Source: a virus. Taken from it: a stretch of DNA of 22,575 nucleotides. Below, one piece after another: positions 1 to 22,575 of this stretch. Position 1 is the stretch's first letter. Every line of letters starts with the position of its first letter. The stretch spans positions 1 to 22,575 of IMG/VR virus record IMGVR_UViG_3300042389_000786; one strand, 5' to 3'. A program made the translations under genes and the position numbers. The notes under the pieces are model-generated. The model ran no database searches. It saw nothing but the letters and a program-made list of their open reading frames with translations, and was not told the DNA's origin.

Positions 1-374
1 TGCTGCAGGTTGGCCCCGTACATCTGGTTCATGGCGCCCTGCTGGTTCCGGATGTCGGTACCCATCGCGTTCGCCAGCGCCTGATCCCAGCTCGCAAACT
101 GCTGCTGGGTTCCGCCACGCTGCTGACTTGGACGGACCGGAGAACCGTAGTTCGCCGTGATCCCCATCGTGCCACCCGTGCGAGCCTCAAAGGATCGACC
201 TGGTCCTTGGCGCTGTGCCGGCGAGTTCAGCCCGACGTTCTGCACCCCACCCATTCCAGTGGGGGCTGACCGACGACCCATCTGCCGATCGCGCTGTGAT
301 TGGCCACCAAACGGCTGACCGAAGTTCGACAGCGACGAAACTGGATCAAAGCCTTGGGTGTTGAATTGGCTCAT
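1..374 (-). CDS. Gln/Gly-rich phage protein, N-terminal part (cut by window edge)
   Basis: The reading frame opens at the ATG at 374 and stays open for 124 codons to the left edge, so only the N-terminus is visible. It starts MSQFNTQGFDP and is rich in Gln, Gly, Asn, Arg and Ser with no recognisable domain. Its ATG shares one base with the TAA stop of the preceding nozzle-like gene (TAATG), which indicates translational coupling within the same late operon. Position after the tail nozzle gene and the composition would fit an internal virion or ejection-type protein, but that is inference only. One copy of the dispersed 9-mer lies inside it (257-265) and is read as Ala-Pro-Thr-Gly. Confidence 0.7.
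   Translation of the reverse strand, partial: MSQFNTQGFDPVSSLSNFGQPFGGQSQRDRQMGRRSAPTGMGGVQNVGLNSPAQRQGPGRSFEARTGGTMGITANYGSPVRPSQQRGGTQQQFASWDQALANAMGTDIRNQQGAMNQMYGANLQ
257..265 (+). repeat. Dispersed 9-mer CAGTGGGGG, copy 1
   Basis: Exact copy, antisense to the partial Gln/Gly-rich gene, read there as GCC CCC ACT GGA (Ala-Pro-Thr-Gly). Confidence 0.85.
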
Positions 375-3300
375 TAGCTTCCTCGAATCTGGGTGGATCG
401 TTCGACCGACGTAATCGCACCGCGCACAATACAGCCCATCAATCGGAAGTCGAGATCAGGGCACAGAATCCGGATTCCGGGGGTCAACGTCGTACCCTTG
501 GCACCGTATCTCCCGTCAGAAGAATCGGTACCAAAGGCTGCATATACCACACCTTCATCGGCTTCTACTGACGAGTACAACGCCCGTGCCGTATCGTACG
601 TTTCCGCTGTGTACGTCGGGGTTCCTGCAACGCCCGAATACAGCAATCCCGTGAACCGGTTGAGAGGAATGGCCGTCAGTTCATCGCGGGTCGCCCCACC
701 AGAGACATCTGAAAACGAAGCCCCGATGCTTCCGACAACCTTCATCCGGAAGAAGTCCGCATTCGAGAAGGTCATCCCCTGCTCGGTCTCCATCCCCAAC
801 GGGTGGCCAGCCCACTCAAACACGACCGGGCTCACAACGAACACGTCTCCAGCCGTGGTGTTGTTGACCCACGAGTTGGCACCCGCGTTGTCCACGATCA
901 CGTCGTTCGTGTTGTTATACATGATCTTGAACTTGCGACCGATGTACGGGGTCATCGCCGCATTCGTAGACCAAACAAGGTAGGCGTACGAGAACCGCCA
1001 AGCTCCCGCCGTCACAATCGTGTTCACGGCGCTGAACGGAATCCGCTTACCAATGTTGTCCCAAGACCCTGTCGCAACAAACCGCGAATCCCCGTCGAAG
1101 TCCAACGTCGTGATTCGTCGCGTGTATTCGTAGGCAGCTGTCGCAATCTGGATCTCTCGCGACTGGTAGCAATCGACGGTGTACACCTGCGGACCAGTCC
1201 AACTGCTATTACCAGTGCCCGACGCTCGCGTGTCTTGCCAGTTCAACAAGAAGAACGCTCTTCGACTCAAGCTGTTCGTTGGGCTAACAAAGCCACTCGA
1301 CTCGATCGGCCACGACCCTTGAGCCGTCAACGCAAAGTTGGCATCCGCAACCTTCGTAGTCTTTCCCGTCGAGAACCACAGAACGTACATCTCTTCCTGC
1401 GTCGGATTGTGGACGAACAAGCAGTTCATAAACGGGTCGTGCACAACCTGGAGCACAGACAGATCCGTCTTCCACTCCTTGGCCATGACGCTGTTCAAGT
1501 TGCGAATCTCGTCAAGCTGGCCCTGCGCGTCCACGCTCTTCAAGCCGTGGCTCGTCACGTAGTAGACCGAGCTGCCCACTGAATCAGCGGCCCGAGGATT
1601 CACGATGCCGTAGCCCTCGTGCATCTCCGTCACTTTGATGTACGGCCCACTCTTCCGAATGTGGTAGACCTTGTCGCGCGAGAGTCCGATCGCATTCGAT
1701 CCTGCTCGCCCGAACTTCACAACTTCGTTACTTGGAACAGTGGGGGTATACCGATTGAACGGGGGGAACAGCTCCGGCACAAGATCCATCAAGCTGGACC
1801 AGCGCATCTCACCCAATCCACGAACCGTATCCGAGACTCGTTTCGTCTCCGTTGTCGACTCTGGTGGTGCATCAATCTTCGACACCAACATCGTGTTCTG
1901 GTGGAACAGCGCAGTGCCACCGAACGGCATCTTCTCATCAAAGACGCTGCGATCGACGTACGCATCCTGATAGACCAACTGCTTGTCTTCCAACTCGTAG
2001 AAGTACATGGCGTGTCGGCTCGTCGTTGCATCCCCGAACGTACGACCTGTGCCGTTCAAGCAAGTGTGGTAATCCGACAACCGAACAACCGCGTCCAAGA
2101 ATGGCAACCCTGCGACCATTGTGCCGCCGGCATCCTGAATCTTGACGCTTCGGTACACGTACATCAGATCGTACTTGCCGGAGTCGTACACGATCTCGAT
2201 GCCTACGTACTGATCGTTCTTCACGCTCAGGTTGTTTCCACCCTGCGTACGCGCGAGAATGAAATCTTCGCTGCGAACTTGCGCCACGGTGCTGAACGCG
2301 CTCTTGCGACCCGTCTTCGAGTTCACCAGCACGTATCCGAAGCTGTAGTCACCCGGCTCAAACTTACGAGCTTGATAACGGTTCTCCGTCGTGAACGAAC
2401 CTACGATGCTCTGATAGAAGAATCCAACACAGTCCGTACGCTTGACACCCACTTTCCAGTAGTAAGTCTTGCCGTATGCCAACCGAAGATTGGGGAACAA
2501 CTGCGCTGGCGAATAGTTCGAGACAGCCAGATTAGTAGCAATGCAGTGATCATCGAGGGCGCCTGTGCCTTCTTCAACCAAGTACACGTCCCATCGGACG
2601 TTCGCATCCAACGCTTCCCCGTCTGGGTAATACGAAGTCCAGTCCAACTTCGGGGTCACGCTCACATTGGTCTGCTTGTTCGCAGGCGTCAACAACTGCG
2701 TTAGAATCCCGACCCCATCCGTGCAAGCACTTCCAGTCGGAGTGTGCGAATTGGGGGATCCTGGTTGAGAAACAGCCCCAGCCGCCGGCACAGTGTCGTT
2801 GTAACAGATGCCCGACGCCTCATTCGGAAACAGGTTCGAGCTCGTGTACGGGTTCTCCGCCAACATCACAACCTGCGCGGACGCCGGTCGTCCCGTCTCC
2901 AACGTCGTAAACGACCCAGGCGCAATCCCACGTTCGGGGCTCGCCAACGATGGCTGCATCCCTGGGCCCGGAATCGTACCTGTGCCCGTGGATCCGATAA
3001 CTGTCGGCGTCAAGAACGTCTTGTTGGTGTACGTGACCGTCAACTTCGGACGGATCCCGTAGTTCGGCTGGGTCCGTCCCGCAAACGAGATCAAGTTGCT
3101 TGCCGTGCTTCCGCGCACAATCACGTCGGTCTTCCTAGTGAACGACTGCGACAACCCGCTCACTGCGCGTTGCACAATGTTCGTCGCCGTCAACTGAACC
3201 TTGCCCAGATAGTTCTTCAGCAGCGTCGAGGAGATCTCGTGGGCGGCCTCGTACGTCCCACCTGCCGTACCCCACGCGGCCGAGGTCGTGCGGTTGTTCC

Positions 3301-4072
3301 ACGTGACCTGCGCCTCATTCCAGAGTACTCCCGTTGCAGAAGGATCGCTCACAGGGGCCACGTACAACGTACCTGAACTACCCGTCAACGCATTACCCGT
3401 GACGGTGAACTCCAACACCGCAGACTCAACAGTCTTTCCGGTCTCAGCCGAAGTATCAAACCGTAGCAGGGTATTCTTGGTGGTACCCCCACTGATTACT
3501 TCGAGTGTCAGGGGTTGGCTGCTTTCGTAGTTGGTAGTTGCTGCGGCGCTGTTGATGAAGGCGTCTGCCTCGCAGGCGTACTCCTTCGTGCGCGTAGCCT
3601 CGATGTAGAACAGGGACGGACTGCGCCCCTCAAGGAAGCAGTACACAAAGCGCCCTGCAACTTGCACATCAAACTGGCCCGTCGCTGGAGCCGCGTCCAT
3701 CAACTTCACGCAACGGGTGAAGCTCTGATTGACCGAGTCCCAGTAGTCGATGAAGACATCCGATACAGTGGGGGTTGCCGGCCTCACTGCCCGATACACG
3801 AACCCGTAGGCGTACTCTTCGGATCCGATCCGGAAGTCCACCGCCTTGAAGTCAACGATCACGGACTTGTGCGTGTGGTTGGTTTGGTTCTGAAGCTCGG
3901 TGATCGTGTACGCCAGCTTGAAGCCAGGGAACGGTCGGAGGCCACCCTCACTGGAACCGTCGACGCCTGTCATCTCCGAGGAGAAACCACGTTGAACACC
4001 TGGGCGCTCAACGCGCTTATCCAACGTCGTCTCCATCACAGGGTATGACCAGTCAGTCTTGAGATCAGCCAC
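374..4072 (-). CDS. Large tail nozzle/tail-tube-like protein with inserted beta domains (1232 aa)
   Basis: Probable virion tail protein. The start is a GTG at 4072, preceded by the good ribosome-binding sequence GAGAGGTG. Residues about 1-165 carry the N-terminal segment PGVQRGFSSEMTGVDGSSEG followed by beta-rich sequence, and residues about 566-1232 look like a continuing beta-propeller-type nozzle. Between them lie two apparently inserted modules. Residues about 168-348 resemble a DNRLRE/CBM96-type surface domain (DAFINSAAATTNY, LLRFDTS, WNEAQVTWNN, RPKLTVTY). Residues about 460-562 resemble a bacterial fibronectin-III-like domain (TNVSVTPKLDW, LAYGKTYYWKV, GSFTT). Known podovirus nozzle proteins sit late in the head-tail operon, as here. 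The stop overlaps the next start. Three copies of the 9-mer fall inside (1738, 3486, 3766). The exact family is uncertain; a tail stabilisation or fibre-anchoring protein is the alternative. Confidence 0.68.
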   Translation of the reverse strand: MADLKTDWSYPVMETTLDKRVERPGVQRGFSSEMTGVDGSSEGGLRPFPGFKLAYTITELQNQTNHTHKSVIVDFKAVDFRIGSEEYAYGFVYRAVRPATPTVSDVFIDYWDSVNQSFTRCVKLMDAAPATGQFDVQVAGRFVYCFLEGRSPSLFYIEATRTKEYACEADAFINSAAATTNYESSQPLTLEVISGGTTKNTLLRFDTSAETGKTVESAVLEFTVTGNALTGSSGTLYVAPVSDPSATGVLWNEAQVTWNNRTTSAAWGTAGGTYEAAHEISSTLLKNYLGKVQLTATNIVQRAVSGLSQSFTRKTDVIVRGSTASNLISFAGRTQPNYGIRPKLTVTYTNKTFLTPTVIGSTGTGTIPGPGMQPSLASPERGIAPGSFTTLETGRPASAQVVMLAENPYTSSNLFPNEASGICYNDTVPAAGAVSQPGSPNSHTPTGSACTDGVGILTQLLTPANKQTNVSVTPKLDWTSYYPDGEALDANVRWDVYLVEEGTGALDDHCIATNLAVSNYSPAQLFPNLRLAYGKTYYWKVGVKRTDCVGFFYQSIVGSFTTENRYQARKFEPGDYSFGYVLVNSKTGRKSAFSTVAQVRSEDFILARTQGGNNLSVKNDQYVGIEIVYDSGKYDLMYVYRSVKIQDAGGTMVAGLPFLDAVVRLSDYHTCLNGTGRTFGDATTSRHAMYFYELEDKQLVYQDAYVDRSVFDEKMPFGGTALFHQNTMLVSKIDAPPESTTETKRVSDTVRGLGEMRWSSLMDLVPELFPPFNRYTPTVPSNEVVKFGRAGSNAIGLSRDKVYHIRKSGPYIKVTEMHEGYGIVNPRAADSVGSSVYYVTSHGLKSVDAQGQLDEIRNLNSVMAKEWKTDLSVLQVVHDPFMNCLFVHNPTQEEMYVLWFSTGKTTKVADANFALTAQGSWPIESSGFVSPTNSLSRRAFFLLNWQDTRASGTGNSSWTGPQVYTVDCYQSREIQIATAAYEYTRRITTLDFDGDSRFVATGSWDNIGKRIPFSAVNTIVTAGAWRFSYAYLVWSTNAAMTPYIGRKFKIMYNNTNDVIVDNAGANSWVNNTTAGDVFVVSPVVFEWAGHPLGMETEQGMTFSNADFFRMKVVGSIGASFSDVSGGATRDELTAIPLNRFTGLLYSGVAGTPTYTAETYDTARALYSSVEADEGVVYAAFGTDSSDGRYGAKGTTLTPGIRILCPDLDFRLMGCIVRGAITSVERSTQIRGS
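1738..1746 (+). repeat. Dispersed 9-mer CAGTGGGGG, copy 2
   Basis: Exact copy in the nozzle-like gene, read as ACC CCC ACT GTT (Thr-Pro-Thr-Val). Confidence 0.85.
3486..3494 (-). repeat. Dispersed 9-mer CAGTGGGGG, copy 3
   Basis: Exact copy with the full extended consensus ATCAGTGGGGGTACC, inside the inserted DNRLRE-like domain; read as Ile-Ser-Gly-Gly-Thr. Confidence 0.85.
3766..3774 (+). repeat. Dispersed 9-mer CAGTGGGGG, copy 4
   Basis: Exact copy in the nozzle-like gene, read as ACC CCC ACT GTA. Opposite in orientation to copy 3, 280 bp away. Confidence 0.85.
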
Positions 4073-5545: not shown

Positions 5546-6359
5546 CGCAAGTCACAGTCAAAGGGTTTTCCATGTGGAACCAAGGACGCCCATCTGCATC
5601 CAAGAACATTGGGACTACAGAATTGTCGCGGATTCTTTTACGGCCAACAACGGTACCTGCCGGGACGGTGTTGCCACCGTTGTTAGGTATTGAACACTCG
5701 TAAACATTGTATGCGACATACGTGGACAAAGCAGAAGATCTAGCTATTTGGCCGGAAGAGGCAACCAAGATCTCTATCCACGAATAAGTCCAAAAGGTTC
5801 CCGCACAATCAACACTGGTAAGCCCTGCTTCTGAACAGGTAATCCCTGTGATCCGAGCTTTGAAGACTGTTTCCGAAGGCCCGAACCCACAGTCACAACC
5901 CCCACTGCCTTCAAGGCCACCTCCACTTGAAGCACCACAGCCATCAACCAGACACTCATCAATCCCCAAGAACAAGCCGTTAGGGTCTTGAAGACAACGA
6001 CCAGAGATGCAGGAGTACCGCAGTTTCTCCTCTGGGCCCACCGGCGGAACAGAGCCTGGGTTCGCGGTTGGAGAGATGGCGGTCGTTGCAGGATTGCCGA
6101 CGACGTTGAAGAACGCGAACGACGTGTCCCCGAAGCCATTGCCGCCAGGCATGAAGAACTGCGCTGGCAACGACGGACCCGTTTGATTCGGGGCAGAACC
6201 AGGTGCAGAGTAACTGGTGGGGTCTACGAACTTAAGGCCAGGAGCCAACGTGACAATCTGAAACCCGTTCGTCATGCGTTGCGTGAACGCTTGCGAGAAC
6301 ACAGGGAGAATCTGCTCGAACTCCCGGTTAGCGGTGTTGAGAAGTTCGTCGTTGTTCAT
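5538..6359 (-). CDS. Structural-module protein with internal cysteine motif (273 aa)
   Basis: It starts MNNDELLNTANREFEQILPV; its ATG shares one base with the TGA stop of the adaptor-like gene (TGATG). The N-terminal ~100 residues have no cysteine and look like a structural domain. At about residues 112-136 a module begins with YSCISGRCLQDPNGLF followed by CLVDGC, a C-x4-C...G-x-F...C-x3-C pattern of the kind seen in environmental virion-associated proteins. A Gly/Ser-rich linker with CDCG follows, then a beta-rich C-terminal region ending TVTCDV; ten cysteines in all. Position directly after the adaptor fits a head-tail or tail accessory protein, but the function is not established. It holds one copy of the 9-mer (5899). 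Confidence 0.7.
   Translation of the reverse strand: MNNDELLNTANREFEQILPVFSQAFTQRMTNGFQIVTLAPGLKFVDPTSYSAPGSAPNQTGPSLPAQFFMPGGNGFGDTSFAFFNVVGNPATTAISPTANPGSVPPVGPEEKLRYSCISGRCLQDPNGLFLGIDECLVDGCGASSGGGLEGSGGCDCGFGPSETVFKARITGITCSEAGLTSVDCAGTFWTYSWIEILVASSGQIARSSALSTYVAYNVYECSIPNNGGNTVPAGTVVGRKRIRDNSVVPMFLDADGRPWFHMENPLTVTCDV
5899..5907 (-). repeat. Dispersed 9-mer CAGTGGGGG, copy 5
   Basis: Exact copy in the Gly/Ser linker of the 273-aa protein, read as GGC AGT GGG GGT. Confidence 0.8.
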
Positions 6360-7243
6360 CAGAACACGAAGAGGTTCATGTTGTCGACGGTACCCCCACT
6401 GAATCTCTTTCCAGTGCGGGAGTTCATGTTGCCCAAGGTGTCATGCGCGGTCTTGATGGCTTGGCGGTACGCGAACGCCAACGATTGCTGTTGGCCCTGC
6501 GAGATCTTTCGACCAACGCCAGCCCGCATCGCCGCGCTCAACGAGACTGCATCAACCATCGGCTCCATCACGAACGGAACTACCTCGTAGCTGTAAGAGC
6601 CTGCCGCGTTCGTGGCAGGAGTCCGCAGCGTGGCCACTCGGGTGGTCGCGTTGTACGCCGAGATCGTGCACTCGTCCGTGACATTGGCCCCAAAGATCCG
6701 CAAGTAGCAGCCCACGTAGGCGTTCTCGCGCTTATCGAGGGAGCCCAAGAAGCCACTAGATGGCAACGTGAATGTCCCGTTCGCATTCAAAGTTCCTGTC
6801 GTTCCGGCGACGTAGTGAGCGGCGACGTCGCCCGACGGAACGTACAGGATGGTGTACGTCTTGGCCTCGGTCGGGTAGGGCTTGAACGAGATCAGGTTGC
6901 CCTCGATCGACCAACCTGGGCCGTACACGTTGAACTCGCTACGAGGGTGGAAGTCCTCGATGAACACGCCCGTCGACGCATTGACGACACCCACCCGAAG
7001 AACCTGGCGCACCATTGGGGGCAACCGGTAGTACTGGGTGTTCGCAGCAACCGTGATCGTGAGCGGAACCACGACCTGTGCGTCTGACATCATGGAGACC
7101 CGCGAGACCACGTCGGTCATCGCGCTCGACATGAAGAACCGCACCAAGTAGTTATCGTCGTACTTCGCGTCCAGATCCGGATCATCCAAGTAGTGGCGAA
7201 CCTTCTCGCAGTACGTCTTGATGATGGATCCGGTTGAGTGCAT
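6359..7243 (-). CDS. Probable head-tail adaptor/connector protein (294 aa)
   Basis: It begins MHSTGSIIKTYCEKVRHYLD with an acidic, helical N-terminus (residues 1-50), a long beta-rich middle (TVAANTQYYRLPP through the region containing YTILYVPSGD) and a C-terminal helical stretch (QQQSLAFAYRQAIKTAHDTL). This helix-beta-helix arrangement, the length near 300 aa and the position two genes after the major capsid protein match podovirus adaptor or tail-tubular-A-type proteins that sit under the portal. No catalytic motif is seen. The preceding gene's TGA ends three bases before this ATG. A 9-mer copy near the 3' end (6393) is read as Phe-Ser-Gly-Gly-Thr. The adaptor assignment is inferred from architecture and order rather than a specific motif. 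Confidence 0.62.
   Translation of the reverse strand: MHSTGSIIKTYCEKVRHYLDDPDLDAKYDDNYLVRFFMSSAMTDVVSRVSMMSDAQVVVPLTITVAANTQYYRLPPMVRQVLRVGVVNASTGVFIEDFHPRSEFNVYGPGWSIEGNLISFKPYPTEAKTYTILYVPSGDVAAHYVAGTTGTLNANGTFTLPSSGFLGSLDKRENAYVGCYLRIFGANVTDECTISAYNATTRVATLRTPATNAAGSYSYEVVPFVMEPMVDAVSLSAAMRAGVGRKISQGQQQSLAFAYRQAIKTAHDTLGNMNSRTGKRFSGGTVDNMNLFVF
6393..6401 (-). repeat. Dispersed 9-mer CAGTGGGGG, copy 6
   Basis: Exact copy near the 3' end of the adaptor-like gene, read as TTC AGT GGG GGT ACC. A one-mismatch word CAGTGCGGG lies 11 bases away at 6412 on the plus strand. Confidence 0.85.
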
Positions 7244-9554: not shown

Positions 9555-10499
9555 TCAGATTGCGGATTCACCTGGAGACGATGCCAATGCCCGCTTGATC
9601 GTGTCTGATGCGAAGTTCTTGACCTGGGACTCAATGTCGCTCAGGGATGCACCAGGCTTGTACTCAGGCTCGGGAACTGGCTTAGAGCGCAGAATCTCCT
9701 GCGCGTCGAGTCCGGTGACCGTTTCCGAAGACCGACCCAAACGGTCAATGTCTCCGATTACCGACCGAAATGTGCCCACTACGGGCTCTACTGCTTTCTC
9801 AACCTCTTCGGACATCCATGCGTCCTCAAAGGTTCCTGCGGAAGCCCGTCGGGCTTGCATTCGTTCGATGGCCCTCTGCTCAAGCTGAGACCGCAAGGTC
9901 TGCTTCGCTTGCTGGAGGCCCTCGTCACCACGAGTGGACTTCGCGCTTTCCAGAAGTCTCTGGAAATCAGCGTTCTTTTCCAGCACTCGATCCAACTGGG
10001 AGTTGAGGTTCTCGCGGAGTTCCCTCACGCGCATCTTGTGAAGTTCAGCTCGCTGTGCCTCAAGTTCCTGTCGGAGAATCTGTTCGTTGCTCATGGTGTC
10101 CTCTTGTGAACCCCCACTGGGATCGGTGTCGTCTTCCAGATCGGGGAGATCGATCTCTTCAATCTCGTCTTCATCGTCATCGGGGAACTCCGGCGCATCG
10201 TCTTCGGTGTCCGGTTCCGAGGTACCCTGCTGCATACGTGCGCGTACAGCTCCGAGGTACTGGTCGATCTGTTGATCCTCGTACCCAAGGTCCGCCAAGA
10301 TGTTGCGGGTCGCATCTTCACGCTCATCTGCCGAAGCATCAGCGCGGAACAAAGTACCAACGCGCTTCAGGTCTCCCTGCAGCGTGTCGTTGATCTCGAT
10401 TGCTTCCGCCAGATCCTTGCGGCTCTGCACGAGATCCCCGATGGAAACCTCGGTGCCGTCGTCAAGCGTGATCGTTGTTGAAAGGTCGATGTCTGCCAT
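9555..10499 (-). CDS. Capsid scaffolding protein (314 aa)
   Basis: Typical scaffold composition: an acidic middle region (residues about 95-126, with runs of Asp/Glu such as EFPDDDEDEIEE) followed by a long charged helical or coiled-coil half (residues about 140-230) and a short basic C-terminal helix (VKNFASDTIKRALASS), which in known scaffolds contacts the coat protein. It would direct procapsid assembly and be lost or ejected on maturation. It is placed between portal and major capsid as expected. Its ATG abuts the portal stop (TAAATG), implying coupling. An internal ATG at 10094 with a strong ribosome site could produce a shorter product. Confidence 0.85.
   Translation of the reverse strand: MADIDLSTTITLDDGTEVSIGDLVQSRKDLAEAIEINDTLQGDLKRVGTLFRADASADEREDATRNILADLGYEDQQIDQYLGAVRARMQQGTSEPDTEDDAPEFPDDDEDEIEEIDLPDLEDDTDPSGGSQEDTMSNEQILRQELEAQRAELHKMRVRELRENLNSQLDRVLEKNADFQRLLESAKSTRGDEGLQQAKQTLRSQLEQRAIERMQARRASAGTFEDAWMSEEVEKAVEPVVGTFRSVIGDIDRLGRSSETVTGLDAQEILRSKPVPEPEYKPGASLSDIESQVKNFASDTIKRALASSPGESAI
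10092..10104 (-). promoter_or_regulatory. Internal ribosome-binding site and ATG within the scaffold gene
   Basis: On the minus strand AGAGGA lies four bases before an in-frame ATG at 10094 (scaffold residue 136), exactly where the acidic region ends and the coiled-coil half begins. Translation from here would give a 179-residue C-terminal scaffold isoform. Internal scaffold starts are known in other phages (for example lambda Nu3 within the C gene); here it is inferred only from sequence. Confidence 0.4.
10111..10119 (-). repeat. Dispersed 9-mer CAGTGGGGG, copy 7
   Basis: Exact copy in the scaffold gene just upstream of the internal ATG at 10094, read as CCC AGT GGG GGT TCA. Confidence 0.85.
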
Positions 10500-12521
10500 T
10501 TACATCCCTTGCATCTGGGGCACCATTCCGGGCTGCGGAGCCGGTGCCCCCTGCTGGAGCCCCTGCAGCTGGGCCATCTGCTGGTCCAGTTTGCCTAGCA
10601 TAGCCACATCGTCAGGATTGGGAAGGGCATTCGGCAACACAAGTCCCATGAATCCGAGCATCGTCTTGTGGTACTCAATGAATGCATTCTGTACCTCGGC
10701 CGACGCAACCGCCATCGTCGGTGAAGCCATGAACGAATTGAGCACTCGGATCTGCATCTCGGGCTTCGACGTCTGTGGCGTCAAAATCAACTGCCCGGGT
10801 TCCTTGCCGTCACCGTACAACAGCAAACAGTTGCGGACCACGGACTCGTAGGCCGACTGATGCTCGTCGGTCCACATCGCGAAGTCGAGACCTTCCTTCA
10901 GCGCGAACAGCATGAAGGTGTCCGGATCAATCTGGAACTGCTGCTGAAGCTGGAGGGCTTCCTGCTTGCGAGCCACCTTGCTCCTTGGATTGATGTCCTT
11001 GATCTTGAACGACAGCTGGCTCAACGACGGCAACGGATTGCGCTCGAAGCTCACAGCCATCGTCTCTGGATCCACCACAACGCCCGCAAGATCCAGCGTC
11101 AACTGATCCACGGTGAACGTCTTCGGGCTGAACACAACCTCACGCACCGAGCCCGCAAGCACCGCTCGATAGCAGTCCCCCCACGCTTGCTGCACACCAG
11201 CAGTCGGCGTGTTCATCGCTCGGTTGACCTGTTCATCCAAGAACTGCAGACCCGTGGCCGAGTCCACCCGGCCCTTCTCCGCAATCAAATCACGGATCGG
11301 GTTCAATCGATCGATCTGCTGAACCGCGAACGCGCTCACGCGCCCGGGCACGTCACCCGAGTTGTACGGCGTAATGTTGAACGGTCGGAAGCCTTCGCTG
11401 ATCGGATCCGGTTCCCATGGGAACACCCGCAATCCCTGACCGACGTCTCGCAACATCGTGTTCGCGTTGAACGAGCCGTGCGGCAACACCAACACACCGT
11501 ACTTGTCGATGTCCCGAATGTTGTTGAACAGCGACTTCTGCAACCGTTCTGCCTCCCGACACAGCGGGAACAACAGATCAAAGACGCCAGCTCCGTGGAA
11601 CGAACCGTTCTCCATGAACCGTGCGAACCCGATCGGGCAGTAAACCTCTTGGCCCTCCAGATCCTCATCGTGAATCACGTACTCACCACTCGTCACCACG
11701 TATCGGGTGACAGTGTCCCGAGGACCCTTCAGCCACAACTCACGGACCCGAACGACCTGCATCGAGTCGGCTTCTGGATCGTGCCCGACGACCTTCTGAT
11801 CCGAATAGACCACCTGAGAACCAAGGGTGTACTCGTTGGCGTTCTGCTGCTCGAAAGTCTCGCCCGGCTTGATCGTGTAGAACTCCATCCGTTCCTTGTT
11901 GCGAGCAACCTTCGGGCCGAACGTGTCCTTCAGGAAGTCCATCGACACGACGCGCTGCCTCAACAACCCGCGCTGCTTCGTGTAGTCCGCCGTCAAACTC
12001 GGGAACGGGAACAACTCCATCGGGTGCACCACCTCCAGATCAGCAGTCATGCCGATCGTCGGGTGATTCACCATGTGGCCTGTGATTCCGCAGGAACCCA
12101 GAAGCGCGAAGATGTGGTTGAACTGGGGGACCACCCGCTGCAACTGATGATCCGAGACCACCTGATCCAGCATGATCTGGGCGATCGACCGCTGCCGGAT
12201 CGAGCTCAACGACGACCCTACCCGCATCACGAGCGGCCTAAAGTCCAAGCTGCTCAGCCGGCCAGAGATCTTGTCCACGGCACTGAGCAACTCGGACGAC
12301 TGGAAGTCCAGCCGGTCCTGCTCGTCCAGATAAGAATATCGGACGGTGCCACTCTCGGGGTCGAACACATCAAACTGACGGGCCCCCATCAGGTAGTACA
12401 GGGCCACGAGCCACGTCGCCCTGCGGTACGCCAGGCGATTCGTCTCCCGTTCGCAGTGCTCGTCGATGATCCGAGCCAACGCCATCGGATCCTTGGTCAG
12501 TTTGATCTTGTCGTTTGCCAT
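10500..12521 (-). CDS. Portal protein (673 aa)
   Basis: Forms the dodecameric DNA channel at one head vertex and binds terminase during packaging. The length and architecture fit podovirus-type portals (P22 gp1 is of similar size). There is a helical N-terminus (ARIIDEHCERETNRLAYRRA), a wing-like mixed region with many Trp, Phe and Pro residues (EVVHPMELFPFPSL, WEPDPISEGFRPF), and a helical stem and crown region (AFAVQQIDRLNPIRDLIAEK). A Gln/Pro/Met-rich tail ends at residue 673. Position between large terminase and scaffold supports the call. The ribosome site before 12521 is weak (AGG), consistent with coupling to the overlapping upstream ORF. The first 152 bases are overlapped in another frame by the 141-aa ORF. 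Confidence 0.88.
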   Translation of the reverse strand: MANDKIKLTKDPMALARIIDEHCERETNRLAYRRATWLVALYYLMGARQFDVFDPESGTVRYSYLDEQDRLDFQSSELLSAVDKISGRLSSLDFRPLVMRVGSSLSSIRQRSIAQIMLDQVVSDHQLQRVVPQFNHIFALLGSCGITGHMVNHPTIGMTADLEVVHPMELFPFPSLTADYTKQRGLLRQRVVSMDFLKDTFGPKVARNKERMEFYTIKPGETFEQQNANEYTLGSQVVYSDQKVVGHDPEADSMQVVRVRELWLKGPRDTVTRYVVTSGEYVIHDEDLEGQEVYCPIGFARFMENGSFHGAGVFDLLFPLCREAERLQKSLFNNIRDIDKYGVLVLPHGSFNANTMLRDVGQGLRVFPWEPDPISEGFRPFNITPYNSGDVPGRVSAFAVQQIDRLNPIRDLIAEKGRVDSATGLQFLDEQVNRAMNTPTAGVQQAWGDCYRAVLAGSVREVVFSPKTFTVDQLTLDLAGVVVDPETMAVSFERNPLPSLSQLSFKIKDINPRSKVARKQEALQLQQQFQIDPDTFMLFALKEGLDFAMWTDEHQSAYESVVRNCLLLYGDGKEPGQLILTPQTSKPEMQIRVLNSFMASPTMAVASAEVQNAFIEYHKTMLGFMGLVLPNALPNPDDVAMLGKLDQQMAQLQGLQQGAPAPQPGMVPQMQGM

Positions 12522-12795
12522 TTCGTGCCTGTGCTTTCCGGGCCGCGAACCCGCCGGGGACCATCTGGACTTGGTTCCTTACTTGAGCGTATTGAGTCAC
12601 CGACTCCTTGGGAGGGAGGTCGGCAGCATACGGGGAACCCCCACTGATTCCTACGGACGGGTGACGTGCGCCATTGCCGAAGTAGGAAAGACAGAGAAGC
12701 CCCATCCAAGCATCGGAAATTGTGACCTCTTGATCCGCCCCGCGATCCAGTGGGGGTTCTTTCTCTACAGAACCTCCGAAATACCATCGAGCCAT
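12370..12795 (-). CDS. Unknown 141-aa protein between terminase and portal, overlapping the portal start
   Basis: The frame opens at ATG 12795 (an earlier in-frame ATG at 12873 would lie inside the terminase gene) and runs 91 codons before reaching the portal start. It then continues about 50 codons in another frame within portal coding sequence. The protein starts MARWYFGGSVEKEPPLDRG and reads like an ordinary soluble protein up to about residue 92 (DAWMGLLCLSYFGNGARHPS), after which it becomes polar and Gly/Asp-rich as expected of a shadow. No other gene fills the 305-bp space between terminase and portal. The ribosome site is poor. Two copies of the 9-mer in inverted orientation lie inside (12638, 12748). 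It may be a real gene with an overlapping tail or one shortened by a frameshift; no family recognised. Confidence 0.5.
   Translation of the reverse strand: MARWYFGGSVEKEPPLDRGADQEVTISDAWMGLLCLSYFGNGARHPSVGISGGSPYAADLPPKESVTQYAQVRNQVQMVPGGFAARKAQARNGKRQDQTDQGSDGVGSDHRRALRTGDESPGVPQGDVARGPVLPDGGPSV
12638..12646 (-). repeat. Dispersed 9-mer CAGTGGGGG, copy 8
   Basis: Exact copy with full extended consensus ATCAGTGGGGGTTCC in the 141-aa ORF between terminase and portal. Confidence 0.85.
12748..12756 (+). repeat. Dispersed 9-mer CAGTGGGGG, copy 9
   Basis: Exact copy inverted relative to copy 8, 110 bp away. It is read in a different codon register (GAA CCC CCA CTG GAT). Confidence 0.85.
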
Positions 12796-12826
12796 GGCCT
12801 CAAAAAGACCTTGGGGTACTCGGGAT

Positions 12827-14791
12827 TCAGATCTTGGAGCGCCCGTTCGGTCGTGCATCTGGGGTTCGTGCATCGAGGATCTCGTTGATTTGGCTTGCGG
12901 ACAACTGGTTGATGTCTAGACCTTCGCCGATGTGCATACCACCCTCTACGAAGTCGCCGTCGCGAAGGCGCTCGAACAAGGTCTTCTGGGCTGCAGCAGG
13001 TCCCGCCTTCGAGAGCCGGCCTTTCAGGATGAACTGGGACATGGCGACCGCATCCAAGCAGTCGTCCTTCTCCAGTCCACCGTCTTGGGCTTCGGGGTTG
13101 AACGACTCGATCTGGTCGAAGAGGTGACGCCACGGCAACTGGTCACGTCGCCACAGCGGCAACTTGATCTTGCCGTGCTCGAAGCGGAACTGGAGACCGG
13201 CGATCTTGTCCTGCTTCTCCGAGATGCCCGGGTTCAGCTTGACGATCTTCGGCAAGTGCTCCACGCCAGCCATGTCGTTGGCGCGGGTCGAAACGATCGA
13301 AGAGAGCGCGTTGTAGAGTGAGACGCCCTGACGAACCGATTCCGGATGAACTGTTGGACATTTCCAGCGATCTGCCATCTCGAAGATCCCGCGCACCAGC
13401 TCGGACTCTTGGCCCTGACGAGCCCAGAGGTCGAGGACGAACAGGTCGTTCTGAGGTGACACGGCCATCAAGCAGCAGACCTTGAAGTCCGAGTCCTTGC
13501 CGGACGTGTGCGAAGTATCGGCGGTGATGAACGTACGGACGTAGCTGCGGAGGAAGTCAGGCAACGGCATCCGCTGAAGGCTGAGCTCGTCGCCGCGACG
13601 CTCATGCCAGCAGATGTACGTGGTCGTAGCGAGCGGTTGGTCGAGACGGTCGTCGATCTCCTCGAACCACCAGCCGTGCTTCACGTCATCCAAGTCCCCG
13701 AAGAACGCGCCTTCTCCGTCGCCAGGGGACGCCAAGTACTCCGAGGCAAAGTTGGCGGACCCGATCGTTTCACGGATCTCCTCCAGCGAAAGAGACTCCT
13801 TGAATCGTGGGCGCGTAACTGCTAGTTTCATGCGCTCTTCACGAGTCGTTGGCCACATGTCTGGCCAGCATGACATCATGGAGCCGTTCTCTTCAATAGC
13901 CGCAGGGATCACGAGACGGGACCACCGATTGAATCGGGGATCCTTCGCCCGTTGTCCTTCCGGCGTGTCATCCAACTGCATTGCGTGCCACAGATAATGG
14001 CGTTTCGACACGAACGTACCGACCCAATCGACTCCTGTATCTGGGCGCGTGACCATCGGGATCACGATCTTGAACAGCAGTTCCGACATGTACGCCCGAA
14101 GCACCGACATTGGCGTCGAGCTTTTCGGATCGTACTCAGGATCGTCAAGACGGTATCGACGTGGACGGCCACCACGCTGCTTCGATGACGCGCTCAAAAG
14201 CCGCAGCCATGACCCGTTGTTCAAGATCATGTGCTCGGTGCTGAACGAGCCTTCGCCACGACGGGGCACGATTCGGTTGCCGTCGTACTCCGGCGAGAAG
14301 TCGTCGTTGATCCGCTGGTTGTGGATCAGCTGGCGCTTGATGCGCTCGCCGACCTCACGCGCGTTCGGGTGCGTCGACGTTGCATAAACGAATGAATATG
14401 CAGGCCGCGTAATCAACCGGAGCAGCATGTCCTTGCAGTTCAGGTACGACTTCGCAGAACCACGAGGCGCAACCGCCGCCGTCAAACGGTACGAAGCCCA
14501 CTGCCGCAGCAGGACCCAGTGGAAGTCCGGCGTTTCCAGCGGCGTGTCGTCGTAGAACAGCGGATTGAAATCAGCTTCGTCGTCAGGCCACAAGTAATAC
14601 CGATCGAACCACCACACCGAAGCCACAAGATTGTTGCCTCGGGTCTCTAGGTTCTCTTCGGGAATCAACCACTGACGACAAGCGTTCACTCGCGCCATCC
14701 GCTGACCATCTTCGGTCAGATCGTCGTAGTCTGCCGGCAGCGGATAATTTGGGTTGCCATCCTCACGACTTTGGATCTTCTTGATTTCCAT
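12827..14791 (-). CDS. terL: Terminase large subunit (654 aa)
   Basis: The ATPase-nuclease motor that packages phage DNA. A Walker A-type motif is visible at about residues 108-115 (APRGSAKS) and a Walker B-type motif with catalytic acidic residues at about 213-219 (YRLDDPE). The RNase H-like nuclease acidic positions are at about D425 (TADTSHTSGKDSDF) and D576/D577/D580 (KDDCLDAV). The ~100-residue N-terminal extension before Walker A makes it longer than many terminases. Its ATG shares one base with the TGA of the preceding small gene (TGATG). No 9-mer copy is present. The fold and motifs make this one of the surest calls in the window. Confidence 0.95.
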   Translation of the reverse strand: MEIKKIQSREDGNPNYPLPADYDDLTEDGQRMARVNACRQWLIPEENLETRGNNLVASVWWFDRYYLWPDDEADFNPLFYDDTPLETPDFHWVLLRQWASYRLTAAVAPRGSAKSYLNCKDMLLRLITRPAYSFVYATSTHPNAREVGERIKRQLIHNQRINDDFSPEYDGNRIVPRRGEGSFSTEHMILNNGSWLRLLSASSKQRGGRPRRYRLDDPEYDPKSSTPMSVLRAYMSELLFKIVIPMVTRPDTGVDWVGTFVSKRHYLWHAMQLDDTPEGQRAKDPRFNRWSRLVIPAAIEENGSMMSCWPDMWPTTREERMKLAVTRPRFKESLSLEEIRETIGSANFASEYLASPGDGEGAFFGDLDDVKHGWWFEEIDDRLDQPLATTTYICWHERRGDELSLQRMPLPDFLRSYVRTFITADTSHTSGKDSDFKVCCLMAVSPQNDLFVLDLWARQGQESELVRGIFEMADRWKCPTVHPESVRQGVSLYNALSSIVSTRANDMAGVEHLPKIVKLNPGISEKQDKIAGLQFRFEHGKIKLPLWRRDQLPWRHLFDQIESFNPEAQDGGLEKDDCLDAVAMSQFILKGRLSKAGPAAAQKTLFERLRDGDFVEGGMHIGEGLDINQLSASQINEILDARTPDARPNGRSKI

Positions 14792-15234: not shown

Positions 15235-15493
15235 GGGAGACCATTCTAACAGATCCAGTCGAGATCATGCCATTCACTTCTGCAACTTCTCGTACACGCC
15301 TGTTCAACCTTTGCAGAGCGGCAAGCCTCGTGTTGTCTTCCAGCGAATTACGGGCGATATCGATGTACATCGACACCTCCTCCTCCACATCAAAGCCGGA
15401 CCGCTGAATGGCTGCAGCCACCCCGTCAATCGAGAACATCGAGCGGATCACACTCTCGCCGTCCTCAATGGTCTCTTTCGTCTTCGGGTTCAT
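15071..15493 (-). CDS. Small helical protein, candidate small terminase subunit (140 aa)
   Basis: It starts MNPKTKETIEDGESVIRSMF; its ATG overlaps the stop of the 465-aa gene (ATGA). Residues about 20-75 look helical (VAAAIQRSGFDVEEEVSMYI, DIARNSLEDNTRLAALQRLN, RRVREVAEVNG), followed by a polar tail ending in Ser/Pro/Thr-rich sequence that overlaps the next gene's 5' end. Helical, DNA-binding-sized proteins just upstream of the large terminase are often small terminase subunits that recognise the packaging site. Order and composition fit, but no diagnostic motif is visible. The last ~54 residues share DNA with the disputed N-terminus of the next gene, so one of the two frames may be shorter than annotated. 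Confidence 0.65.
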   Translation of the reverse strand: MNPKTKETIEDGESVIRSMFSIDGVAAAIQRSGFDVEEEVSMYIDIARNSLEDNTRLAALQRLNRRVREVAEVNGMISTGSVRMVSHEEDGTLVERTRSESRLLSQVRGLPIPGKSFISSRVLPPATSTGETRPSDPSAS

Positions 15494-16887: not shown

Positions 16888-16891
16888 TCAA

Positions 16892-16900
16892 CCCCCACTG
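16892..16900 (-). repeat. Dispersed 9-mer CAGTGGGGG, copy 10 (intergenic, in ribosome-site position)
   Basis: The only copy outside coding sequence. Its G-run ends four bases before the ATG of the 465-aa gene and is the only ribosome-site-like sequence there. Context ATCAGTGGGGGTTGA. Confidence 0.85.
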
Positions 16901-18805: not shown

Positions 18806-21312
18806 TTAGCCGCCTTCTTCTTGGTTTCGGCGCGAGCGGACTTGTAGCCCTCGACGACGCCCTTCGCGCCGCGCTTTGTCGCATTGGCAAGACGGTTGGT
18901 TCCGCGCACCGTTGCATTGGCGAGACGGTCAGCTCCACCGATCAGTTTCTCAAGAGCCGCATCGACTGCTTGTTGGATCACAGGGTCTACAGGAATCGGT
19001 GCCTTCGCTGCCGTCTGTCGAGCGATCTGCGCGTTTGCTGCACGACCTTGAGCAACCCGACGAGCCGTTTCCTGCTCATTGCGGATCTTTTGCGGAGGTA
19101 CCGGCGGAAGGTCTCGGAACAATCGACCTTGGCCCCGAAGATCTGCCCCAGATTCTGAAGGAGCAGGCTTGATGGCATAAGGGGTTTCCACAGGTGCACG
19201 TGTTGTTTGCGTCGGAACATCCGCCCTAGTGAAGCCCTCAAGCAACCGTTCACCGTTCGGCATCATGGTTTGAGGGTAAGGAGGTCGCGTTGCTCCAACG
19301 GGGGTTTTCGACGGAACCAAGTTGGCAAGAGGATCTACTCCTGTTGGAACTGGACCCAATGGCCCGTAGATAGGAACGGTGGCTTCGGGGAGTCCGCCGG
19401 AGTACGGATTGGTGCGAGCCGTTCCTTGAGGCACAGGCATGTCGACAACTTGGCCCGGTTGACCAGGGTTCACTTGCGTAGTAGCTTGTGGGGTGTAGAA
19501 GTCACCCATGCCCGGGATTCGCTGGCGAGGGTTGAACTTCATACCCCTCTCGAAGCCAGGGGAAACTTGAACCGGATTGACGCGCTCTGTTGTTGGTGCG
19601 GTCTGGCCCTGAAGCATCGGGTTGTCGACGACGGGTTGAGCGCGGACAGGCGCAGGGGCTGGTCCGGCTGGTCCACGGATGCCGGCAGCGGCACCACCGA
19701 GCAAGTCTTGGACTGCACCCTGCATCTGTGCTTGAGTTTGACGCGCCTCAGCAGCGGCTCGTTCCTCGGGCGTACGAGCGCGATCAACTTCACGCTGCGC
19801 CAACTCCGCAGGAAGTGGTGCACCAAGAACTCCAGTGCCTGGACGAAACGGAGCTGCAACTGGGCTGTTATACAGGTCGCGCATAAAGCGATCGAAACCG
19901 GTATTCGCTCCTCGCAAGAGCTTCTCACCAGAGGACCTGTTGTTGAGTTCTGCGTAACCAGTGGGGTCGAAGCCGACGCGGCCAGCTTCTTCAACCATTT
20001 GGCGCTGTGCCATCTGTTGTTCTACAGCAGCTCGTTGATCCGGCGGAAGCGTAGCCAAGAGTTCTGGAGGTACCCCCACTGATTGGGTGGGTGCGGCTGG
20101 AGTTGCGGCTGAAACTGGGGTAGGAGCAGCGGCAGGAGCAGTGCTTGGAGGGATTGGGCCGAAGAGCTTATCGAGGTAGCCGCCGCGTTGCAGGTCGGCT
20201 TTCAGTTTGGCCTGCTGTTCTGGAGGGATACCGTAATCGGTGACCATCTTGTTGAACGCAGATTCCATCTTGGCGTTGTACTCAGGATCTGCGGCACCAG
20301 CGTTCGTGTTCGGAATGCCCGCAAGGTTCTTCAACTCCAAGCCAAGTGAGCCGACTGCTTTGTCGGCTGCAGCCTGATCTCTTGCCGAACTACCACGGAA
20401 GTAACCCGTTTCGTATCCACCTGGAGTTCCAGCGTTCACAAGCTCGGCGATCGTTTCCAAAGCGGATGGGGCACGACCGCCACGAGCAGCGGTGTTCAAC
20501 AAGCCCCGAGTGTTTGCCGAAGTATCAGAAGTGGCGACTTGAGACAGTTGACCAGTGGGGGTCTCCGCAATCATCCCTCGGATCTGCTCAGCCATTGCAC
20601 CCAGGTTAGTGGGGGCTGGAGGACCGACGTCTTCGGGGTTCGGGTAGGGAATTGAAAGTTCAGGAGTAGTGGGACGAGGGGTGTACTCCCTGACAAGTTT
20701 GTCAAGGTATTCTCGGTTTTTCTGTTCCGCTGCGTCGACTCCGCCGGTAAGATTGGCGGACGTAAAACGTCCCTCGTTCTCGGCATTGAACTTCGCAGCC
20801 AACGCCTCCGTCTCAGCTTTCCCAGCCTTACGCTCAGCTACACGTTCACGGATTCGATTCTTGTAGAGTTCTTGCCGACCGGCCATCCGCTCCTGTGCAG
20901 CGATTCCACGAATAGCGTTGTTGTAACGCTGCAGGATTCGTTGAGGATCTGGAGAAGCGTCGGTTCCGTAGAGGCCGCTCATCTTCAGCATGTCCATCTC
21001 GTTGCGATACTGCGCCTCCGCAGCGTTCCGCAACTGATCGAACATTGAGCGGTCCTTCGGAAGACCAGCAGTAGACGTCGTAGCCTTCGTAGCTTTCGGA
21101 GCCCCAACAGTAGAAGCCGATTGAAGACGAGATCGCGGATCTTGTTCCGGTGTCGTTCCACTCATGGGGAACTCGGCAGCGGTCAAGGGCTTGCGTGAAG
21201 AACCCCCACTGATACCAGTAGGTTGACCCTTGCGGGCTTCGAGCTCGCGCAAGAAGTATGTTGGGTCCATCAGGTATTGGGAAGACAAGAGCGGGTTTGG
21301 CATCTGGGACAT
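18802..21312 (-). CDS. Large low-complexity phage protein (836 aa)
   Basis: The start chosen is ATG 21312, with AGGAG 7 bases upstream; an earlier in-frame ATG at 21543 would run antisense through the helicase gene. The protein begins MSQMPNPLLSSQYLMDPTYF. It alternates helical charged stretches (ELYKNRIRERVAERKAGKAE near residues 145-165) with long Pro/Ala/Thr/Gln-rich disordered linkers, and ends in a basic C-terminus (GYKSARAETKKKAAK). A tandem 11-residue repeat is at residues 795-816. No enzymatic motif is recognised. Size, low complexity and operon position suggest a virion internal protein, possibly ejected with DNA, but this is not shown. It holds three exact 9-mer copies and the one-base variant. 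Confidence 0.75.
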   Translation of the reverse strand: MSQMPNPLLSSQYLMDPTYFLRELEARKGQPTGISGGSSRKPLTAAEFPMSGTTPEQDPRSRLQSASTVGAPKATKATTSTAGLPKDRSMFDQLRNAAEAQYRNEMDMLKMSGLYGTDASPDPQRILQRYNNAIRGIAAQERMAGRQELYKNRIRERVAERKAGKAETEALAAKFNAENEGRFTSANLTGGVDAAEQKNREYLDKLVREYTPRPTTPELSIPYPNPEDVGPPAPTNLGAMAEQIRGMIAETPTGQLSQVATSDTSANTRGLLNTAARGGRAPSALETIAELVNAGTPGGYETGYFRGSSARDQAAADKAVGSLGLELKNLAGIPNTNAGAADPEYNAKMESAFNKMVTDYGIPPEQQAKLKADLQRGGYLDKLFGPIPPSTAPAAAPTPVSAATPAAPTQSVGVPPELLATLPPDQRAAVEQQMAQRQMVEEAGRVGFDPTGYAELNNRSSGEKLLRGANTGFDRFMRDLYNSPVAAPFRPGTGVLGAPLPAELAQREVDRARTPEERAAAEARQTQAQMQGAVQDLLGGAAAGIRGPAGPAPAPVRAQPVVDNPMLQGQTAPTTERVNPVQVSPGFERGMKFNPRQRIPGMGDFYTPQATTQVNPGQPGQVVDMPVPQGTARTNPYSGGLPEATVPIYGPLGPVPTGVDPLANLVPSKTPVGATRPPYPQTMMPNGERLLEGFTRADVPTQTTRAPVETPYAIKPAPSESGADLRGQGRLFRDLPPVPPQKIRNEQETARRVAQGRAANAQIARQTAAKAPIPVDPVIQQAVDAALEKLIGGADRLANATVRGTNRLANATKRGAKGVVEGYKSARAETKKKAAK
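18865..18930 (-). repeat. 33-bp tandem duplication encoding an 11-aa repeat
   Basis: Two adjacent 33-bp units encode DRLANATVRGT and NRLANATKRGA near the C-terminus of the 836-aa protein. The core GCATTGGCRAGACGGT (plus strand) recurs at 18881 and 18914. The in-frame duplication is slightly diverged, so it is not brand new. Confidence 0.85.
20073..20081 (-). repeat. Dispersed 9-mer CAGTGGGGG, copy 11
   Basis: Exact copy with context ATCAGTGGGGGTACC identical over 15 bases to copy 3, but read in another codon register (TCA GTG GGG GTA). Confidence 0.85.
20553..20561 (+). repeat. Dispersed 9-mer CAGTGGGGG, copy 12
   Basis: Exact copy in the 836-aa gene, read as ACC CCC ACT GGT (Thr-Pro-Thr-Gly). 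Confidence 0.85.
20607..20615 (+). repeat. One-base variant of the 9-mer (TAGTGGGGG)
   Basis: Differs from the core only at the first base; same orientation as copy 12 and 54 bp from it. Read as GCC CCC ACT AAC. Confidence 0.55.
21203..21211 (-). repeat. Dispersed 9-mer CAGTGGGGG, copy 13
   Basis: Exact copy with full consensus ATCAGTGGGGGTTCT, about 100 bp inside the 836-aa gene from the divergent junction; read as Ile-Ser-Gly-Gly-Ser. Confidence 0.85.
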
Positions 21313-21339: not shown

Positions 21340-22575
21340 ATGACTTTGGGTACACAACAAAACCCTTTGCGAACAACTGAACCAATGAAGGTCGCAAGGG
21401 CCATGCTGCAGGTTTGTTTTGAGGACGGGATGGGATTGAAGGAAGTGCAGGGCCGGCTGTTCGAGTGGTACGGCGGCAAGTGGGTGCAGAGGGATCAGCA
21501 GTGGCTTGAGGACGCCGTGTGGCGATGGGCCGAGGATCTGCACGTCAGTGACGATCAGAACGGACTCGTCGTGGAGCGGTACGGCCCAACCGAGTTCAAG
21601 GTGTCAGGGATCGTGCGGGCGTTGCAGGCGCTGTGCCGAGTGGCTGCGACCGAAGTGCCGCAGTGGCTTTATACGGACTATCGGGATCGGCTGATGGATC
21701 CAGGGTGCGCGATCGCGTTCAGAGACGTGATCGTGGACGTGAAGGCGAGCGCGGGCGTTGGTGCGATGGTGTGTGTTCCGCGAGGACCGGAGTGGTTTGA
21801 TCCGTGCGTCGTGGACGTGGATTTGGATACGGGTGCGGAGTGCCCGAGGTGGATGCAGTGTTTGGAGGAGTGGAGTGGTGGGGATGAGACGTGGAAGGAG
21901 CTGTTGCAGCGGTGGATGGGCTACTCGATGATGGGCCACCGGCGTTACGCAAAGTGGATGCTGTTCCACGGAAAGATTAGGGCGGGCAAGGGCACCATCA
22001 GCACGGTGATGCGCTGGCTCGTGGGTGGGACTGGGTTCGTGGGTAGTAGTTTGGATGAGATCGCGGGCAGCTTTGGGTTGGACGGGCTGGAGTTCGCGAG
22101 AGTGCTGTGCATCTCGGAAGTGAGCGAGCTCGATTCGCGGGAGGGCGAGGTCGCGGTTCGGGTGCTGAAGAACGTGCTCGGACGGGATCCGATCTCGATC
22201 AATGCGAAGTACAAGCGCCAGATGCGGAACGTCGTGGTGAGCGCGGCCCCGTGGGTGCAGGCGAACGAGATCCCCCAGTTGCCGAACAAGGGCCGTGGCT
22301 TGAGTGGGAAGATGCTGGTGCTGCCGTTTGAGCGGAGCTTCGAGGGCAAGGAACAGCACAACCTGATGGACGTGCTAAAGGGCGAGCTGGCGGGGATCGC
22401 AGCTTGGGCGCTCAGGGGCGCGATCCGGTTGGAGGGTGCAGCGGACTCGGAGAAGTTCGCCCCCACTGATGGCGGGCTGAGGGTGGTCAAGGATTACCAC
22501 CTGACCAATAACCCTTTCGATTACTTTTTGGAGGCGCGGTTCGTGAAGAACAGGGGTGGGTTCGTGGCGAATGAG
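21340..22575 (+). CDS. P4/D5-type SF3 replicative helicase, N-terminal 412 aa (cut by window edge)
   Basis: The only plus-strand gene in the window. It starts MTLGTQQNPLRTTEPMKVAR after AGGAAGG and stays open to the right edge. Residues about 169-205 match the D5-N-type region preceding the helicase (CPRWMQCLEEWSGGDETWKE, LLQRWMGYSMMG). Walker A is at about 210-220 (HGKIRAGKGTI) and Walker B at about 254-262 (RVLCISEVS, E260). A sensor region follows at 299-313 (VVSAAPWVQANEIPQLP) and a probable arginine-finger region at 325-334 (MLVLPFERSF). Known P4 and poxvirus D5-type proteins unwind DNA at replication forks and often carry an N-terminal primase domain; only about 165 residues precede the D5-N region here, with no primase motif seen. 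One 9-mer copy lies at 22460. Confidence 0.88.
   Translation, partial: MTLGTQQNPLRTTEPMKVARAMLQVCFEDGMGLKEVQGRLFEWYGGKWVQRDQQWLEDAVWRWAEDLHVSDDQNGLVVERYGPTEFKVSGIVRALQALCRVAATEVPQWLYTDYRDRLMDPGCAIAFRDVIVDVKASAGVGAMVCVPRGPEWFDPCVVDVDLDTGAECPRWMQCLEEWSGGDETWKELLQRWMGYSMMGHRRYAKWMLFHGKIRAGKGTISTVMRWLVGGTGFVGSSLDEIAGSFGLDGLEFARVLCISEVSELDSREGEVAVRVLKNVLGRDPISINAKYKRQMRNVVVSAAPWVQANEIPQLPNKGRGLSGKMLVLPFERSFEGKEQHNLMDVLKGELAGIAAWALRGAIRLEGAADSEKFAPTDGGLRVVKDYHLTNNPFDYFLEARFVKNRGGFVANE
22460..22468 (-). repeat. Dispersed 9-mer CAGTGGGGG, copy 14
   Basis: Exact copy in the helicase gene (ATCAGTGGGGGCGAA on the minus strand), read on the plus strand as GCC CCC ACT GAT. Shows the motif is not confined to the late minus-strand operon. 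Confidence 0.85.

Follow-up and report, generated by a model that had tools for sequence, protein, structure and literature searches.

The 22,575-nucleotide stretch analyzed here (IMG/VR virus record IMGVR_UViG_3300042389_000786, positions 1 to 22,575; the window) is a fragment of the genome of an uncultured tailed phage of ~53 kb, and both it and its relatives are studded with a nine-base word, CAGTGGGGG, which is strict, polar and under selection at the level of DNA. The window holds 14 copies, 12 of them followed by T to give CAGTGGGGGT, and at up to one mismatch there are 19 matches to CAGTGGGGG compared with 6.4 +/- 2.6 in shuffles. In 39 related records, a set which takes in the window and is made up of uncultured phages of ~53 kb, each as a whole record or a fragment, 484 copies were observed against 6.0 expected under a second-order model (observed/expected ~80). 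This corresponds to ~5-6 copies per 10 kb in the phage family (~0.55/kb), or ~30 per genome, and CAGTGGGGG is the top 9-mer in nearly all of the 39 records, the GC content of which runs from 48 to 67%. Each of the 27 possible one-mismatch words was at background in these records (0-14 copies), indicating that recognition is all-or-none across the nine bases. Chance or composition as the origin of the word was ruled out by the excess of 484 over 6.0, the flat one-mismatch neighbors and the control words described below. The word was not found in the literature searched, and Rfam gave no match.

An earlier note, made from the window's letters alone, had proposed DNA-level selection from the observation that the same peptide is encoded with and without the 9-mer, and inspection of the codons bears this out. 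In the minus-strand gene at 374-4072, Thr-Pro-Thr-Val is encoded twice through the word, which lies on the plus strand at 1738..1747 (antisense in the gene; codons ACC CCC ACT GTT at 1736-1747) and 3766..3775 (ACC CCC ACT GTA at 3764-3775), and once without it as ACG CCG ACA GTT (2999..3010, minus strand). Likewise, Ser-Gly-Gly is AGT GGG GGT in the motif copies, while TCC GGC GGA is used at 19393-19401 and TCT GGT GGG at 695-703. The tally of coding registers also holds: six copies read xSGG (3486, 5899, 6393, 10111, 12638 and 21203), six read (A/T)PT (257, 1738, 3766, 20553, 22460 and the variant, a one-mismatch site at 20607), and two fall in other registers (PPL at 12748 and SVGV at 20073).

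In codon alignments of orthologous genes, the word is kept while nearby synonymous sites vary. The comparison was made only on codons with identical amino acids in diverged orthologue pairs, for which the bins of 30-40% and 40-50% codon identity are the most informative. Motif codons were identical at a frequency of 0.81 against 0.28 for flanking codons in the first of these bins, 0.80 against 0.43 in the second, and 0.73 against 0.56 in pairs at 50-60%. Over 33 site columns the mean codon identity was 0.82 in the word, 0.53 in the flanks and 0.35 for these codons in the rest of the gene, with 27 of the 33 columns exceeding their flanks and 28 exceeding the same codons elsewhere; the columns share genomes, and P values are therefore indicative only. 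Motif codons that vary as freely as their flanks, which the earlier note had named as the observation that would speak against selection, were seen at the site in the portal-like gene (window 11202-11210; word 0.56, flank 0.58). There the window itself encodes Thr-Pro-Thr without the word (ACG CCG ACT, 11202..11210, minus strand), and 19 of 35 relatives carry the word at the same peptide. This exception indicates that individual sites are gained and lost.

The suggestion that the word is placed wherever its codons are tolerated could be given numbers. All six registers are used by CAGTGGGGG, and 334 of the 632 coding places compatible with the encoded peptide are filled, where 10.7 were expected from codon usage (~53% against 1.7%). 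Eleven control words put through the same test gave between 1 and 28 observed copies, most near expectation, with fill of 0-4% and a maximum of 11%. Sites shared by all aligned relatives were found in the scaffold-like gene (34/34), in a small gene that lies between those for terminase and portal (18/18), in the PD-(D/E)XK gene (9/9) and in the ERCC4 gene (8/8), while most CAGTGGGGG sites are lineage-specific. Alternative sites within 20 bp numbered 22 compared with ~5 expected by extrapolation, an excess that gap placement may inflate; it suggests that the word is re-created at shifted registers.

The word is oriented along the phage DNA molecule. Taking as forward (F) the word on the terminase strand (terminase large subunit gene, 12827..14791, minus strand), the ratio of F to reverse (R) copies across the 39 records is 313:171, or ~2:1. 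Sense and antisense copies number 183:90 in plus-strand genes and 17:53 in minus-strand genes, and 48:14 and 12:36, respectively, for the word of the sister clade designated clade 3. The opposite sense bias in the two gene sets shows that orientation follows the DNA molecule and not transcription, and a transcription-linked signal is ruled out by the orientation of words in minus-strand genes. In both gene sets the possible coding places are more often occupied in orientation F (0.55 against 0.43, and 0.74 against 0.45). Five near-complete genomes show the bias evenly along their whole length, and the skew at third positions indicates that the same strand is G-rich throughout the genome; a whole-genome G-rich strand suggests that replication may be mainly one-directional. 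Spacing is also constrained. Same-strand words less than 150 bp apart are rare (2 observed, 11.4 expected), and there is an excess of opposite-strand pairs within that distance (32 against 12.5), many of these pairs being orthologous and thus representing fewer independent events. One opposite-strand pair at 18 bp is kept in 7 of 12 genomes. This inverted pair, CCCCCACTG-N9-CAGTGGGGG, is conserved in a gene of 120 amino acids (G019 32683-33045, G009 494-862, G007 409-437), and phages with other dialects of the word also carry their own words in the region of that gene.

These dialects appear at two levels. The base following CAGTGGGGG is T in 74% of copies and G in nearly all copies of four records (G003, G006, G021 and G030). 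The G-bearing rows sit in at least three places on the terminase tree, indicating that all sites of a genome have switched together more than once; the contigs with G at base 10 are without most replication genes. Deeper relatives, with terminases ~50-55% identical, carry words of their own instead of CAGTGGGGG: one large clade uses GAGTGGGGG, another uses GTGGGGGGA with the extensions TGGGGGGAC and CGTGGGGGG, and for two lone branches TAGTGGGGG and TAGTGGGGA are suggested on few copies. Dialect labels cluster strongly on the phage tree. The sister clades fill their own coding opportunities much as the window's relatives do (77/126 against 1.8 expected and 110/216 against 5.9 expected), with the words of other clades far lower at each clade's opportunities. 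Site positions are mostly non-coincident between dialect clades; each clade has therefore built its site set largely anew, which suggests a function that depends on density and orientation rather than on fixed regulatory places. That the word recurs within genes in any reading frame, with slightly changed words in related branches, implies that some DNA-reading machine recognizes it, probably one of the phage's own. Clade-3 contigs L267, L268 and L270 contain a second over-represented word, CCGCGATAC, at 4-5 copies per 10-21 kb, and three long-branch terminase relatives (L291, L283 and L285) have no clear dialect in the sequence examined.

Scans of IMG/VR with pair patterns found word-dense contigs only inside the phage family, with unrelated phage contigs not enriched, which speaks against a word common to unrelated phages. 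A scan for close word pairs in 84,980 species genomes of GTDB returned tandem repeats only, with no dispersed enrichment, among the 80 loci listed of 98; CAGTGGGGG was at control level in 28 whole bacterial genomes; and no such phage was found in 777 sampled genomes from one planctomycete-centered phylum and one alphaproteobacterial class. A clade-3 phage was located in a metagenome-assembled genome (MAG G1026, from a phylum centered on a myxobacterial genome), where three contigs (C7, C18 and C72; L311-L314) totaling 48.6 kb carry the terminase, portal, PolA, nuclease and Sak4 genes. These contigs hold 35 of the 74 GTGGGGGG copies in the assembly, and the other ~3.55 Mb is at control density. 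This is a first hint at the host, for which binning is not proof. A host-wide word thus has no support from the GTDB scan, the 28 genomes or the remainder of the assembly, the host itself not being identified, and this makes a phage-encoded reader of the word more likely; we consider it quite probable that the reader is encoded by the phage.

The gene content of the family offers candidates for such a reader. The structural genes occupy one strand. The opposite strand carries the replication genes, among them a DUF5906 helicase, a Sak4-like AAA_24 protein, a PD-(D/E)XK nuclease, an ERCC4 nuclease, PolA and UDG. The terminase large subunit was identified by its match to phrog_38 (1.4e-39). A set of 50,697 phage records contained nothing that matched the terminase, portal and major capsid proteins, and these proteins and the nuclease had no close relatives in INPHARED. 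The nuclease, Sak4, ERCC4, PolA and helicase are common to all three dialect clades. A structural model of the nuclease (pLDDT 81) has as its nearest solved folds the nuclease domains of AddB, AdnA and RecE, and the predicted resemblance to enzymes of the kind controlled by Chi is suggestive only. In L073 (1778-3205, minus strand) and at the right end of the window, the similarity of the DUF5906 protein to phage primase families is confined to their helicase half, and none of the scanned genes yielded a primase domain.

We file the word under no known system, and it appears to work most like a polar signal of the Chi type. Our favored reading, which we put forward tentatively, is that phage-encoded machinery which processes DNA ends or carries out recombination uses it in the manner of Chi. 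Phage machinery would move along or process phage DNA in one prevailing direction and read the word as it does so, the candidate reader being the conserved recombination set of AddB/RecB-type PD-(D/E)XK nuclease, Sak4-like annealing protein and ERCC4 nuclease. The word may mark DNA as the phage's own and limit its degradation from one end, and it may promote recombination or concatemer formation. Wherever the encoded protein permits, selection would then keep words in the correct orientation above some minimum density, and a shift in the specificity of the reader, with all sites following, would give rise to dialects. In a fuller and more speculative form, the word would be a self-recognition code encoded by a lytic phage family, Chi-like or otherwise polar, which the nuclease and recombination proteins of the phage recognize and those of the host do not, and in which reader specificity and ~30 sites change in step. 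Like the Chi sequences of E. coli (GCTGGTGG) and other species, and like Chi in phages without RecBCD inhibitors, the word is G-rich, polar, dispersed, found inside coding sequence and variable by lineage. The chromosome of the host is enriched in Chi (~0.2/kb; PMC3784561), whereas the word stands at ~0.55/kb in the phage, and the search turned up no host chromosome that carries it.

Several points weigh against a Chi-like role. The reader protein is a candidate, and the fold match of the nuclease spans the nuclease domain only (query TM 0.27-0.29). Known Chi readers pair a helicase with a nuclease, while the phage nuclease stands alone. Polarity is ~2:1 (3:1 in clade 3), which is weaker than that of one-strand phage nick sites, and divergent pairs such as the one 18 bp apart fit no ready explanation. 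Host Chi sites tend to be missing from phages that encode both their own recombinase and a RecBCD inhibitor (PMC3784561), and the need for a Chi-like signal here is thus not obvious.

It is unlikely that the word is instead cut by a site-specific nickase encoded by the phage, in the manner of T5, phiKMV-like and tf/LUZ24-like phages, where single-strand interruptions are present in virion DNA. Phage tf has 14 nicks in a strict 9-bp consensus and its relatives use a variant word; this motif is enriched in a group of 61 phages, and its function is unknown (PMC3517423, PMC11780129). The word described here is equally short, strict and phage-specific and has dialects; like the tf/LUZ24-like words (TACTRTGMC and WACTRTGAC) and those of phiKMV-like phages and T5, it is confined to one phage group, has variants and occurs in and outside genes (PMC3517423, PMC11780129). 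The known words differ in being present at 9-14 copies on one strand only, whereas the word occurs ~30 times on both strands with a 2:1 to 3:1 bias, a third of copies lying on the other strand. In addition, nicking at the enriched opposite-strand pairs within 150 bp, including the conserved 18-bp pair, would risk double-strand breaks.

There is a low probability that the word is the host's own Chi, recognized by RecBCD, AddAB or AdnAB and adopted by the phage to protect its DNA. E. coli Chi is over-represented in lambdoid phages that have no recombination functions (PMC3784561), and the word is G-rich and polar with an orientation bias along the molecule. The GTDB scan and the 28 genomes at background argue against this explanation, as does the assembly with the clade-3 phage, where GTGGGGGG outside the ~49 kb of phage contigs is at control level, the true host not being identified.

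We regard it as comparably improbable that the word is the start site of a sequence-specific primase in mainly one-directional replication, with copies at the spacing of Okazaki fragments. The uniform polarity of the molecule with the G excess of one strand, a spacing of ~1.5-2 kb with same-strand spacing below 150 bp avoided, and the conservation of a DUF5906 helicase of primase-helicase type are all consistent with priming. Known primases, however, read ~3-5 bases and not a strict 9-base word, the phage protein lacks a match to the primase half of these families, and the first primer base would vary by dialect (the G run is followed by T, G or A).

Very little probability attaches to a repressor or stoperator site that silences transcription genome-wide, as in cluster A mycobacteriophages. 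Stoperators, of which a genome has 20-30, are likewise asymmetric with a consensus specific to the subcluster, but they are oriented with transcription (PMC6550527), whereas the word keeps its orientation along the molecule in genes transcribed either way. Copies with one mismatch show no enrichment, and neither a repressor nor an integrase family was found in the G019 genes scanned, many of which have no family match at all. Finally, an origin in coding or mutational bias (favored peptides or G-rich composition) has next to no probability, for although the sites of the word are rich in SGG, PT and VG peptides, control words of the same composition or with one base changed are at expectation in the same peptides, and these controls, the six registers and the codon test rule out a protein-level cause. 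DNA uptake sequences of Neisseriaceae and Pasteurellaceae resemble the word as genome-wide short words with clade dialects that are tolerated in genes; those are words of bacterial chromosomes that serve transformation, whereas this is the genome of a lytic-looking phage.

Most known examples of short polar words that steer DNA machines, such as Chi, KOPS and uptake words, come from bacterial chromosomes. In the present case, a large family of uncultured phages carries such a word at about half of the coding positions able to hold it, and sister clades have replaced it genome-wide. The word offers a tangible starting point for identifying the protein that reads it, its dialects form a natural series of specificity changes for studies of coevolution, and it can serve as a marker for fragments of the family without a protein search. 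It also bears on the strict nick-associated words of phages, the function of which has been unknown for 50 years.

The remaining copies in the window are as follows, as CAGTGGGGGT unless stated. At the left end, CAGTGGGGG occurs at 257..265 on the plus strand, antisense in a partial minus-strand gene; its Ala-Pro-Thr register depends on a frame correction that places the ATG complement at 372-374. Minus-strand copies read ISGG at 3485..3494, GSGG at 5898..5907 and FSGG at 6392..6401, the last in an SU10-adaptor-like gene and kept only in G001 and G002. The universal site of the small gene between terminase and portal (12637..12646, minus strand) reads ISGG, and its divergent partner 110 bp away (12748..12757, plus strand) reads PPL, with the spacing kept in relatives; for both, the frame of the open reading frame at 12370-12873 was used because changes in relatives fall on its third positions. 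A non-coding copy (16891..16900, minus strand) lies just upstream of the start codon of the gene at 15490-16887. Farther right are SVGV at 20072..20081 (minus strand), TPTG at 20553..20562 (plus strand), ISGG at 21202..21211 (minus strand) and CAGTGGGGG at 22460..22468 (minus strand), which reads APTD, lies antisense in the plus-strand DUF5906 helicase gene and is present in 12 of 13 relatives.

The universal copy in the scaffold-like gene (10110..10119, minus strand) reads PSGG. An in-frame ATG follows this word in the window (10085-10119) and in orthologues such as L062 and L060; it is preceded by an AGAGGA-like ribosome site and is invariant in 32 aligned rows, which suggests a putative nested start of the kind found in a protease/scaffold pair. 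In addition, the replication arm of G019 encodes a protein with an Mtd_N domain (Major tropism determinant N-terminal domain; L075:3149-4048, minus strand).

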